Both the position numbers and the translations under genes were made by a program. From a virus: 64,000 nucleotides of DNA. Positions 1 to 45,492 of this stretch are shown here, piece by piece; the stretch's first letter is position 1, and every line of letters begins with the position of its first letter. Location of the stretch: positions 1 to 64,000 of the IMG/VR virus record IMGVR_UViG_3300023202_000205; one strand, 5' to 3'. Under the pieces are notes generated by a model. It was not told the DNA's origin and did no database searches. It was given only the letters and a program-made list of their open reading frames with translations.

Positions 1-99
1 ACGGTGCCTGCCGGCAGCGTGCTGCCTCCGAGGTTGAGCAGTTGGAGCCTCTCTGGCAGCACGGTGCCTGCCGGCAGCGTGCTGCCTCCGAGGTTGAGC
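1..99. repeat. 60-bp tandem coding repeat
   Basis: Bases 1-39 and 61-99 are identical, giving a 60-bp period. This encodes the 20-residue solenoid repeat of the partial leftward gene. The exact DNA identity suggests recent duplication of a repeat unit, so copy number may vary between related phages. The array continues beyond the left edge of the window. Confidence 0.85.
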
Positions 100-158
100 C
101 CGTGGAGTTTAGCCCATTCCTTCTCGGTGTAGGATACCCGTTTAATTATTTCTGGCAT
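1..158 (-). CDS. Leucine-rich-repeat-like solenoid protein, partial
   Basis: Read leftward from an ATG at 156-158, preceded by a clear AAGGAG ribosome site 4 bases away. It runs off the window edge, so only 52 residues are seen. After a short head (MPEIIKRVSYTEKEWAKL) comes a repeat of 20 residues containing LNLGGSTLPAGTVLP. The second copy begins before the window edge and is identical over at least 13 codons. Such short Leu/Gly/Pro repeats build LRR-like or beta-solenoid folds used for protein binding. The total repeat number and function cannot be seen. It lies downstream of a 48-bp element that also precedes the MYG1 gene. Confidence 0.7.
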   Translation of the reverse strand, partial: MPEIIKRVSYTEKEWAKLHGLNLGGSTLPAGTVLPERLQLLNLGGSTLPAGT

Positions 159-1885: not shown

Positions 1886-2715
1886 AAGGGCACCAACAAA
1901 GCGTTGGTGCCCTAGTGCCTAGAACGGCACCATCAAAAACGCAGGCCTGGCCTTCCCGGCTTCTTCTGAATTGTGGGAAAGCCCAGCCACACCATTTACG
2001 TTGGCTTACGGGGTTATACTCTTTTCCATGAGTCGCGGGATTATTTGTCCCACATTTCCATACACGTCCATGGTCCTAACGATAAGTCCGTAAATCGTTC
2101 AAAGCCCCCGACACACGCCGGGGTAGAAGCTCCTTCTGATAAACAGGTTGCATCGTAGCCCATTTGTCCGCTATGGCGTGCGTACCCCTCTATGAATGTC
2201 CCTACCTAGTAGGAACGCCCACAGTAGCGCAGTGGGAAGAGGGTTGAGAGAGCCGAGCAAAAATAGCTCTCAAGGACACGCAAGGCCCTACCTTTATATG
2301 GATTTAATCCAGCGGCTCCACGTAACCGCAAGAGCAGTAGGGAGACGCCACTCTCCTAACTACCCCCGAGACCCTTACGGCCTCTTCCACCGGTAAGGAC
2401 AATCTGCAAGGTTCCGAGAACCCGGTGGGACGCTTCCCTCATTTGCAAGGGACGGGGTGCGACGACCCCTCTCCATAGGTTCGGCGACTGCATGCCGTCG
2501 CCTATCTATAAAGTTGCGCTGCTGGCTTAGGATATCCATGGCTTTCACCACAGGCTCTTTTCAGCTCAGCTTACTCGGTATGGGCGGTTACTTCCGCCCC
2601 CTAGAAATCCTGCCACCTGGGCAGTGTCTATCGGATGCCACAGATCCGTTACCGAGCTGGGTTCCTAGCGCCGTCGCTAGGTACAACCCAGTACCAGCTA
2701 TATCTAATAGCTAAT
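1886..2715 (-). ncRNA. Candidate large structured non-coding RNA
   Basis: No convincing gene occupies 1742-2864; reading frames here are short and lack ribosome sites. Dense complementarity is present instead. There is a junction closed by CCCTAC (2286-2291)/GTAGGG (2337-2342) holding two hairpins, stems at 2373-2398, 2410-2422, 2454-2469 and 2483-2502, and a four-way junction closed by CTCGGTA (2574-2580)/TACCGAG (2650-2656) that holds three hairpins. A long hairpin lies at 2658-2691. More stems occur at 2127-2139 and 2201-2213. Leftward transcription is favoured because several stems extend through G-U pairs only on that strand, because loops become purine-rich, and because a GC-rich hairpin lies at the left end. 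Size and phage setting recall GOLLD and ROOL RNAs, but class membership is not shown. Ends are approximate. Confidence 0.6.
1888..1912 (-). terminator. GC-rich hairpin at left end of the structured RNA
   Basis: A perfect 10-bp stem (GGGCACCAAC/GTTGGTGCCC) with a 5-base loop. Read leftward it is followed by TTGCTTCCTC, a modest T-rich tract, so it could be the intrinsic terminator of the candidate non-coding RNA. The T tract is poor, so a purely structural 3' hairpin is an alternative. Confidence 0.45.
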
Positions 2716-2842: not shown

Positions 2843-2909
2843 CTTCTCTGACCCCCTACCGGGGGTGATCGATCTTGACGACTGTAGCATACCCGCATAT
2901 GGTTTCGCC

Positions 2910-4160
2910 ATGGCGAAGCTGCTCTGTGTAACCCCCTGGCCCGGGTTGAAAACCCATTACGGTCGTGTACCCGCTGGGCTTATCCCCTTGTGGAAAAAGC
3001 ACTTCGAGGAAGTAGCCATTTGGAGTACCTACGGAGGGCCAGAGGATGGGGAGGACCCCACGGGTACCAGCCGTACCTGGCATGAAGACAAACCACTGCT
3101 AGAGCGGCTTACCCAGTTGGGGGACCTCATTCAAAGCGGAGAATGGAGCCACATTTGGATTCTCGGTGACTTGGGCTTCCTGTCAGATCTTGCAGGTCTC
3201 GGCCTGACTCAGTCCAACCTTCCTAATCAGCTCCTTTATGCGTATGCCATAATCGACACTCCTTTTATCGATCAAGAATACGCTAAGCTCGCAGCACATT
3301 ACGATTTCTTCGTATGTCTCTCCGGAATGGCTACGGGTGCCTACGTCGAACTCGTAGCAGGCCTTGGCCCTCAAGCACCAAAGGACCTCTTTAAGGGAGC
3401 CCTTCATTGTAAGACAATCAGGCCAGGGGTCGACAACACCGTCTTTTACCCACTCGATTCCCACAAAAGGGAGTTTGGCAAAGAAGAGCTGCGAGAGGCT
3501 ATCTTCGGAGGTCGTGTAGCCAAGGACGACCTGCTGATCATGGTCTCTGGGCATAAGTCACGAAGAAAGGGTATCCCACAAGCCTGCTCCTTGGTAAGCC
3601 AACTACAACCGCTCATAGGAGATCGGAGAGTAAAACTCTACTTCCATATGGACTGCCGCCCTACCGGGGACCGCCCACTCAATATCCCCATTCTTGCCGA
3701 GGGGTGCGATTTGAACTCCCGCAAAGACGTGCTTTATGCAGACGGTTTCTTCCGTGATGGCAAGCCCACGCTGAGTGACCAGGATCTCAACCAGCTCTAT
3801 AACTCAGTGGATTTGGTGCTCTGTCCGGACATAGCCAATGGGTGGCCTTTCACCGCTTCGGAGGCTATGGCTGCCGGGACTGTTGTAGCTGCCCCTGGCG
3901 ACCACGTCTGGCTCGACCTACTCGACCGACGTGGTATCGAACTGCCCTGCACTGAGTTCGGCTGGGCCCCTTGGTCACGCTCGGAAATGGCCCGCTTCAT
4001 AGATCCCGGCGTATCCGCACAAAAAATCGCGGAAGTAGTTAACGATATCAACCGTTACGAGGAGACTCGGGAAGCGGGAATACGCTGGGCCTTTCTCGAC
4101 CGCACTTCTTCTTGGGACTACTCCGCCGACCAATGGTTAGGGCTCTTTGGTGTTGCATGA
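2910..4160 (+). CDS. GT4-like (GT-B fold) glycosyltransferase
   Basis: About 416 residues. The C-terminal half shows a GT-B nucleotide-sugar-binding domain: IRPGVDNTVFYP, LIMVSGHKSRRKGIPQA, then LYNSVDLVLCPDIANGWPFTASEAMAAGTVVAA, where the Glu of the SEAMA motif is the usual donor-contact residue. The N-terminal half (LLCVTPWPGLKTHYG) is the acceptor domain. Enzymes of this family move a sugar from a nucleotide donor to a glycan, protein or DNA base; the acceptor is not known here. I chose ATG 2910 (MAKLLCVTPWPG); the frame is open to a GTG at 2865, but that GTG lies inside a hairpin. No strong ribosome site is seen for either start. The stop overlaps the next start (ATGA). Confidence 0.85.
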   Translation: MAKLLCVTPWPGLKTHYGRVPAGLIPLWKKHFEEVAIWSTYGGPEDGEDPTGTSRTWHEDKPLLERLTQLGDLIQSGEWSHIWILGDLGFLSDLAGLGLTQSNLPNQLLYAYAIIDTPFIDQEYAKLAAHYDFFVCLSGMATGAYVELVAGLGPQAPKDLFKGALHCKTIRPGVDNTVFYPLDSHKREFGKEELREAIFGGRVAKDDLLIMVSGHKSRRKGIPQACSLVSQLQPLIGDRRVKLYFHMDCRPTGDRPLNIPILAEGCDLNSRKDVLYADGFFRDGKPTLSDQDLNQLYNSVDLVLCPDIANGWPFTASEAMAAGTVVAAPGDHVWLDLLDRRGIELPCTEFGWAPWSRSEMARFIDPGVSAQKIAEVVNDINRYEETREAGIRWAFLDRTSSWDYSADQWLGLFGVA

Positions 4161-44077: not shown

Positions 44078-44458
44078 CTAAATGTGGCAACTCGTAGACG
44101 TTGCCAGTGATTGGGTTCCTGTTTCACCCAGGCCGGTATCGTCTTGGCATAAGCCAGGACCAGAGCCCGCCTGTCCACAGGCGTCGATTCCCCTGAAGCC
44201 CAAGGTACGAAGGTTTTGAGCGGCGTTGACATCGCGATCTTCGGTATGTCCGCAGTCACACTTGAAGGCTCGATCTGACCTGGAAAGTTTACCTCTTGGT
44301 ATTCTGTAGGTTTCTAAGAGTTTACTCTTCTTCAAATGATAAACTATAGCGCCCTCTGTTACCTGGTGTTTTTCAGCCAACTCCGCCCTGCTAACTCCCT
44401 CCTTATACAGCTTGCAGCTGTCTGCTATCTGATTTTTAGAAAGTTTATGTGACGTCAT
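44078..44458 (-). pseudogene. TnpB (IS605-type OrfB) C-terminal remnant with HTH head
   Basis: 126 residues from ATG 44458 (MTSHKLSKNQIADSC); a TTG at 44491 is less likely. The C-terminal part FKCDCGHTEDRDVNAAQNLRTLG is the end of TnpB/IS605 OrfB: the zinc-ribbon half and the RDxNAAxN block that supplies the last RuvC Asp. The rest of the nuclease (first RuvC motifs, most of the ribbon) is missing. In its place stands a helix-turn-helix (SKNQIADSCKLYKEGVSRAELAEKHQVT) similar to those of the two neighbouring mobile proteins. It thus looks like a chimaera or decayed element rather than a working nuclease. Confidence 0.75.
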
Positions 44459-44495
44459 ACCACAACTATACAAAACAAAGCAGATGCACAATTAA

Positions 44496-44529
44496 AAGAT
44501 CCCCCAACCCTTTCAGGATGGGGGATCTT
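44496..44529 (-). terminator. Intrinsic terminator of the major capsid gene
   Basis: An 11-bp perfect stem AAGATCCCCCA/TGGGGGATCTT, loop of 12 bases, followed leftward by TTAATTG, which with the stem's TT makes a short T run. It begins 25 bases after the major capsid protein stop. Strong expression of the capsid gene makes a terminator here sensible. Confidence 0.8.
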
Positions 44530-44553
44530 CGTAAACCGCTTATCTAGCTAGGT

Positions 44554-45492
44554 TTAGCTGGTACTGATACGAGCCTTCGCGATCGAAGCGGGGTTGCCGA
44601 TGGTGGCACCACGCTCAGTGTAAGCGAAGAACTCCAGGTTGTACGCTCTCTTATCCATGAAGAGGGTCACATCTTCCAGGATGAACGACTTGCCGATGAA
44701 CTCGGGCGAGGAGAACAACCAGAAGGTGTCATTCTCGACAAGCTCGGTCTTGCTGGTCACGACCCAATTCATTCCCAACAGCCGTTTCTGCTGGAAACCC
44801 TCGACGAACATGCTCTCGGAGAGGTCGCCACCAACCTCGTCGCGGCCGAACTTGGCCACGTCGTGGATGGTGATGTTGTTGACCAGGATGGTCACGCTCT
44901 CCAGATGAGCAAAGGTCTCGGGCAGGATCTTACGCATCTCGAAGAGCGAGTTGCGAGTGATACCGAGCGAGTCGATGATGTTCCGGTTCTGGATGACACC
45001 AGTCTCGGCCACGGTCGAACCTTCCGCACCAACGATCGTCTGCGCTGCAGCGATCATCTTGCGGTCGAACTCGAAGTCCATGTCGAGAATAGCGTTATCC
45101 GAGATCACCTGGCGGATGTCCATCCCGTAGGTTCGGAGCTCAGACACATCCTTGGTGAACTTCGGAGTGACGATCCGGTCGAAGAAGACCGGATAGCGAT
45201 CACCACGGAAGTAGTACTGGATGGGCTGAGTACCGAGCGGAATAGTGATAGCCGCCGGGCTAGCCGCTTCACGCTCGACGAGCTTGACGTTCTTGTCGGT
45301 GCCGAGCTGAGGTGTCAGCTCGTCATCGGCGAGCTTCACGCCAGGCAGCACCTTCTCGAACACCGAAGACTCGCGAATGCGAATTCGGGTGAAGTCGGTC
45401 ACCATGTCCTGGGCTTCCTTGACCTGCCCGGCATCGAGCAAGCCAAAGAAGGCCTTATTGGACTGGGCCGCACTGAGCTTCTGTTGAGTCAT
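44554..45492 (-). CDS. Major capsid protein (HK97 fold)
   Basis: 312 residues from ATG 45492, 9 bases after GAGAGGAA. The order of segments is that of HK97-type capsids: N-terminal helix (AQSNKAFFGLLDAGQVKEAQD), an E-loop region (ESSVFEKVLPGVKLADDEL), a P-domain spine helix (LEMRKILPETFAHLESVTILVNNITIHDV region) and the A-domain strand VVTSKTELVENDTFWLFSSPEFIGKSFILED. The protein forms the shell lattice. Downstream terminator and the upstream decoration-like, scaffold-like and protease-like genes agree. No fold search was run; identification rests on layout and context. Confidence 0.8.
   Translation of the reverse strand: MTQQKLSAAQSNKAFFGLLDAGQVKEAQDMVTDFTRIRIRESSVFEKVLPGVKLADDELTPQLGTDKNVKLVEREAASPAAITIPLGTQPIQYYFRGDRYPVFFDRIVTPKFTKDVSELRTYGMDIRQVISDNAILDMDFEFDRKMIAAAQTIVGAEGSTVAETGVIQNRNIIDSLGITRNSLFEMRKILPETFAHLESVTILVNNITIHDVAKFGRDEVGGDLSESMFVEGFQQKRLLGMNWVVTSKTELVENDTFWLFSSPEFIGKSFILEDVTLFMDKRAYNLEFFAYTERGATIGNPASIAKARISTS

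Follow-up and report, generated by a model that had tools for sequence, protein, structure and literature searches.

To our knowledge, only a few kinds of giant phage RNA have been recognized. GOLLD (RF02032) and ROOL are large, ornate RNAs of phages and prophages that lie near tRNA islands and whose function is unknown; GOLLD is longer than 800 nt, elaborately folded and protein-free (PMC12286853). A second group relevant here is that of the HDV-like theta ribozymes at the ends of phage tRNAs, which are active in vitro and are abolished by a C-to-U change in the joining strand J4/2; the 526 non-tRNA hits of that study were given no function, and tmRNA is unmentioned (PMC10879173). The phage locus described here carries a gene-free, exceptionally structured region of some 830 nt, followed immediately by an HDV-like ribozyme core. 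We lean towards the reading that this region is a free-standing phage RNA, freed from the message of the neighbouring MYG1 gene by the ribozyme. What appears to be new is the position of an HDV-like ribozyme at the predicted 3' end of a giant phage RNA that is itself an orphan; the theta ribozymes of tRNA ends are already known (PMC10879173).

The window analysed is the first 64 kb (64,000 nucleotides) of a 179,364-bp IMG/VR virus record. This record encodes a multi-subunit RNA polymerase of phage type, a fragment of which is about 30% identical to those of Salmonella phage Arash and Vibrio phage D69. In the closest relative found, the sister phage G001 (191,518 bp), the RNA polymerase identity is 73%. 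The structured region occupies most of a gap of about 1,124 bases (1742-2864) between the divergent genes for a MYG1-family exonuclease and a glycosyltransferase (table 1). Genes of the MYG1 family were also found in 52 viral contigs (L113-L164), many of them large. The part of the gap next to the glycosyltransferase gene (2769-2863) contains palindromic C-rich repeats of the CCCCCTAGGGGG type, which have look-alikes in other parts of the phage.

Table 1. Features of the locus, with window positions and the basis of each assignment.
Feature	Position	Strand	Basis or remark
MYG1-family exonuclease gene	806-1741	minus	PF03690, E 1.1e-64; co-directional with and downstream of the ribozyme
MYG1 leader hairpin ahead of the Shine-Dalgarno sequence	1776-1796	minus	leaders of the same kind at genome positions 240 and 179022
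HDV-like ribozyme core	1799-1885	minus	RF02682 match, descriptor, phage relatives; upstream of MYG1
Large structured non-coding RNA, ~830 nt (predicted)	1886-2715	minus	folding and absence of a coding frame
3'-terminal hairpin, perfect 11 bp	1887-1913	minus	one nucleotide ahead of the ribozyme
Central multiloop closed by 2520-2515/1943-1938	1938-2520	minus	p 0.91
Domain enclosed by two long-range stems, 2433-2427/2187-2180 and 2401-2385/2215-2197	2180-2433	minus	pair probabilities
Four-way junction, tRNA-like outline	2574-2656	minus	pair probabilities 0.73-1.0
AT-rich promoter-like block	2721-2757	minus	partly shared by G001, the sister phage, at the matching position
Glycosyltransferase gene	2865-4160	plus	divergent neighbour; synteny anchor

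The six frames of 1886-2715, scored against the genes of the same phage, contain no coding signal, and the region tops the 33 stretches sampled across the window for excess structure. Both results bear out the preliminary description, which had proposed a gene-free, many-stemmed RNA of this size. The 841-nt stretch folds 46.6 kcal/mol (minus strand) and 43.7 kcal/mol (plus strand) below its shuffled copies, compared with a mean of -8.1 (sd 10.5, most extreme -28.5) for the 32 remaining stretches, likewise 841 nt long and folded on both strands; z against 20 shuffles is -6.0 (minus) and -7.4 (plus). Elsewhere in the window, a gene-free gap of 604 bases (44259-44863) beside an HNH/homing endonuclease gene shows excess structure in a minus-strand stretch at 44401 (z -4.4).

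The two strands differ in the quality of their folds. The minus strand has the lower minimum free energy (-355 versus -309 kcal/mol), more G-U pairs (32 versus 21) and a smaller ensemble diversity (98 versus 190). Its fold has 24 hairpin loops and is closed by stems that span long distances, and the probability of most of these elements exceeds 0.8. The leftward strand is likely to be the RNA strand because of its lower energy and better-defined fold and because the sister phage carries tRNAs on the same strand at this locus (see below); by modelling, a large structured RNA on this strand is well supported. The leftward G-U bias noted in the preliminary description holds overall, but the hairpin 2373-2398 cited as an example is absent from the best minus-strand fold, in which 2392-2401 pairs over a long range with 2197-2206 (p 0.94). 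The four-way junction with its three hairpins, also proposed there, is present, with a 7-bp closing stem (CUCGGUA/UACCGAG) and three arms. The loop 2496-2489 bears the palindrome GCAUGC. The whole fold is a thermodynamic one for a single sequence.

That the plus strand too folds better than shuffles might suggest structure-rich DNA, or a plus-strand RNA forming an extended glycosyltransferase leader, with no minus-strand RNA product. Excess structure on the plus strand is, however, expected for a complement, and the plus-strand fold is poorly defined (centroid -261 versus a minimum of -313; diversity as above). The ribozyme core is found on the minus strand only, where the G001 tRNAs of this locus also lie, and we consider a purely plus-strand or DNA explanation very improbable.

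Rfam models gave no match at gathering score anywhere in the window. The preliminary description had seen in the region an undescribed or divergent member of the class of GOLLD and ROOL, to be checked with covariance models of these and other large RNAs; neither GOLLD, through the conserved 3' region of its model, nor ROOL was matched, at gathering score or at E up to 10 in a permissive search of 1700-2900. The same library detects a true GOLLD in phage contig L184 with 326.8 bits. Weak permissive matches to RsmW and H19_3 (E 0.67 and 4.7) are attributed to chance, and identification as a tmRNA was rejected since no model matches. The large, leftward structured RNA stands and membership in GOLLD or ROOL does not. 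Size and phage origin would suit a divergent GOLLD or ROOL RNA, as would the tRNA locus at the same place in G001, and a Met-tRNA is likewise found upstream of GOLLD env-38 (PMC12286853); in view of the failed model matches we give this origin very little credence indeed. The likeness to GOLLD extends to length, elaborate fold, lack of protein and phage origin; as to the tRNA-island setting, the window itself has no tRNA and the sister locus does. GOLLD is further marked by its assembly into a homo-oligomeric nanocage. With ROOL the RNA shares large size, ornate structure and occurrence in a phage; tRNAs, beside which ROOL lies, are again seen at the locus in G001. Both classes differ from it in sequence model and in that its predicted 3' end abuts an HDV-like ribozyme. 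Likening the RNA to them by kind is fair, and in its working it would resemble them at most by analogy.

The ribozyme core behind the region was overlooked in the preliminary description. P1 (1885-1879/1856-1850, GCUUCCU/AGGAAGC, 7 bp) directly abuts P3', and P2 (1875-1871/1803-1799, GUAGC/GCUAC, 5 bp) lies one nucleotide ahead of P3 (1869-1867/1859-1857, ACC/GGU, 3 bp). P3 is closed by a 7-nt L3, UCCACGU (1866-1860), of the UYYNCGY type. P1.1 consists of two pairs, CC/GG, with the GG at 1849-1848, and a P4-like stem is formed by 1844-1841/1833-1830. P1, P1.1, P2, P3 and L3 are all intact. HDV-like ribozymes cleave immediately before their own first nucleotide, and the cut predicted from the sequence falls between 1886 and 1885. 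The same edge had been set for the RNA from its stems alone.

RF02682 (HDV-F-prausnitzii) aligns in full length at 1885-1818 of the minus strand, with P1.1 changed from CU/AG to CC/GG. The score of 23.6 bits is below the family cut-off of 44; E is 0.0026 over the whole 179-kb genome for that family only, and 0.074 against all families in the permissive Rfam search of 1.2 kb. Matches of the same model in MYG1-bearing phages are weak (11.6-17.6 bits). With a strict descriptor (7-bp P1, P3, L3 of UYYNCGY type, P1.1), the window is the sole match in 1.2 Mb of fetched loci, and five shuffled sets yielded 0. CCTCYACGTGG occurs at one more site of this phage (L004:147-157), which was rejected as a ribozyme. 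By its fold, the core belongs with the HDV-like ribozymes, and the case for the core and its position is strong.

Querying IMG/VR for P3-L3 returned 49 stretches, and about 20 phage ribozymes have a P3-L3 sequence identical to that of the window. A perfect, correctly placed 7-bp P1 was present at 21 of 43 testable distinct sites (window included); among shifted controls the figure was 8 of 246. Almost all perfect-P1 sites have P2 and a J4/2 of the form C-N-R-A, whose first position is that of the catalytic C; the scan selects on P3-L3, so that independent evidence is limited to P1, P2 and J4/2. The cleavage site coincides with the 3' end of a tRNA in six contigs (L181, L186, L198, L205, L217 and L218) and with that of a tmRNA in two, L184 and L192 (64.7 and 72.4 bits), which represent two tmRNA lineages. 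In five others (L170, L187, L188, L211 and L216) the ribozyme lies directly behind a strong hairpin and ahead of a start codon, and L173 has two copies, each preceded by a structured stretch. The window has this hairpin-ribozyme-gene arrangement, with a much larger RNA of 830 nt in front. It resembles the tmRNA cases in that the 3' end of a large structured RNA would coincide with the cleavage site, and differs in that the RNA is no tmRNA.

The tmRNA genes ending at an HDV-like cleavage site are L192:249-689 and L184:1899-2296; no description of a phage tmRNA paired with an HDV-like ribozyme was found in the literature searched. Contig L187 contains two HDV-like ribozymes together with two type-P5 twister ribozymes.

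The window copy shares with the phage ribozymes already described (PMC10879173) the nested double-pseudoknot core, the P3-L3 sequence identical in many phage copies and a position in which the predicted cut would form the 3' end of a structured RNA. It differs in that the RNA ahead of it is an 830-nt orphan instead of a tRNA, and in having a P4; a theta ribozyme by the published definition is ruled out on these two grounds. It differs further in J4/2, which is interrupted by an 18-nt hairpin (stem 1824-1820/1813-1809, CCCUG/CAGGG). The order is UAAC, the hairpin, UAGA and then P2'. P2' lies farther off than in the confirmed phage copies, and the catalytic C does not stand next to it, unlike in other phage ribozymes, where this C precedes P2' by a few bases. 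C1826 is a possible catalytic cytosine only if the hairpin is an insert. As a hypothesis, since L211 has GGAUAUGUAACUAAGA ahead of P2', the window may be read as the L211 strand with a hairpin inserted just behind C1826. By analogy with the C-to-U change (see above), a displaced catalytic C could likewise abolish cleavage. The activity of the window copy is uncertain because J4/2, the expected carrier of the catalytic C, is interrupted.

If the interrupted core were a dead HDV-like remnant, the 830-nt RNA could stay attached to the MYG1 message, forming a giant, structured 5' leader that acts in cis, for example on MYG1 expression or message stability. MYG1 is directly downstream in the same direction, and many phage ribozyme copies precede a start codon. 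Intact and complementary P1, P1.1, P2 and P3 are nevertheless unlikely after long decay, and an 830-nt multi-domain structure is far larger than ordinary leaders. Moreover, MYG1 has a short leader of its own, of a type seen at two other places in the genome. This leader element, a hairpin followed by CCACGTGATCCYAAGGAGGAT, occurs in three copies ahead of genes (window 240 and 1766; 179022 of the phage genome, G000). On balance we find an attached leader unlikely, though worth retaining as an alternative.

Two of the three leader copies are close to the two ends of the contig. At the start of the window (1-120), the contig end interrupts a tandem repeat array with a 60-base unit that encodes a leucine-rich-like repeat.

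Homologues of the RNA body, whose collection from related phages for a covariation test had been proposed, were not found in the phages searched. None was recovered by blastn in phages, by MYG1 8-mers in viral contigs, by DNA search in 20 relatives or through a MYG1 protein search in 33 relatives. Blastn against about 1.2 Mb of loci, against the 49 loci of the ribozyme scan and against 31 that two 16-mer scans had returned gave seed-sized or ribozyme-core matches only, and a one-sequence covariance model of 2691-2521 found no homologue in 41 phage records. As no homologue was found, no covariation test could be made, which is the main weakness of the structural model.

In the sister phage, the same glycosyltransferase gene is preceded by a minus-strand tRNA and an interrupted tRNA, located behind an AT-rich block partly similar to that of the window. 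These tRNAs at the matching place point to a leftward-transcribed stable-RNA locus in both phages, whose transcription we infer and whose content differs between them. They also invite the view that the window RNA is the relic of a tRNA island, with tRNA-like and interrupted tRNAs drifted past recognition, particularly as such ribozymes normally follow tRNAs (PMC10879173) and the junction 2574-2656 has a tRNA outline. Yet the junction has no T-loop or D-arm consensus and was not recognized as a tRNA, the tRNA search of the window was empty, which disposes of an intact tRNA, and decay would ruin a structure that is in fact exceptionally stable and well defined; we therefore hold a relic to be very unlikely. 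Two ORF-poor gaps of G001 were rejected as counterparts of the region, as they show no excess structure (z -0.6 to -1.4).

Under the reading that we prefer, release by the ribozyme, leftward transcription from the AT-rich block around 2720-2757 would yield an RNA of about 830 nt, with a 5' end probably near 2715-2720, and would continue toward MYG1. The ribozyme (1885-1799) would fold behind the RNA and cut at 1886/1885. The 3' end is placed at 1886 because the predicted cleavage site is there, and the released RNA would end in the protective 11-bp hairpin. The MYG1 message would retain the ribozyme as its leader. The free RNA may then work as a stable structural RNA, like GOLLD and ROOL in kind and unrelated to them in sequence. 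A 3'-end ribozyme of the type that frees phage tRNAs and tmRNAs suggests that the window RNA may likewise be cut from a longer transcript.

Several points count against release: the failure to find a homologue of the RNA body in the relatives searched, the RF02682 score under the cut-off, the catalytic C located away from P2' with J4/2 split by the hairpin, the excess structure of the plus strand as well, the lack of a recognizable promoter or terminator, and a leader or promoter that MYG1 may have for itself. No terminator-like site was found at either side of the RNA, and the low-edge hairpin, which the preliminary description had taken as terminator-like, is followed by no T run on either strand. 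As for the promoter-like stretch proposed at the other flank, no sigma-70 match was found in 2721-2757; what persists of that proposal is the similar block at the same place in G001.

If the release reading is true, the locus adds one more kind of giant phage RNA with a clear biogenesis step, in which the end of the RNA is set by a ribozyme and neither by a terminator nor by a host RNase. The tRNA-distant HDV-like ribozymes of phages would then have a proposed role, that of marking the 3' ends of stable RNAs, two tmRNA lineages included, and could be used as signposts to unknown structured RNAs upstream. A bolder generalization, which we advance only tentatively and judge somewhat doubtful, is that the RNA represents a new giant class, self-released at its 3' end by a ribozyme in which the hairpin inserted into J4/2 either gives a variant active site or works as a switch, and that HDV-like ribozymes generally form the 3' ends of stable RNAs in phages, be they tRNAs, tmRNAs or giant RNAs.

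Several other elements were observed in these phages. An ORF of 908 aa at L005:14441-17167 consists mostly of a ATREAVHDATLRAV-type repeat. In G001, L095:13240-13440, upstream of the glycosyltransferase gene, contains a tRNA-Met beside a tRNA whose anticodon region is interrupted by about 110 extra nt. Also in G001, L095:10030-10870 (minus strand) is an array of tRNA halves in which the 3' half is ahead of the 5' half, with a complementary acceptor strand; the units are joined by a repeated element UAUUCUC...GCAGCGG...GUUACUUCU. They can be read as circularly permuted tRNAs or as units resembling Y RNA that include a tRNA module, and the array is directly upstream of a Ro60/TROVE gene (PF05731). 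Similar permuted tRNAs occur at L189:840-1500, in a phage contig that encodes a TROVE protein too. A tRNA with a CUA anticodon, a possible amber suppressor, is found at L095:2699-2771 of G001.
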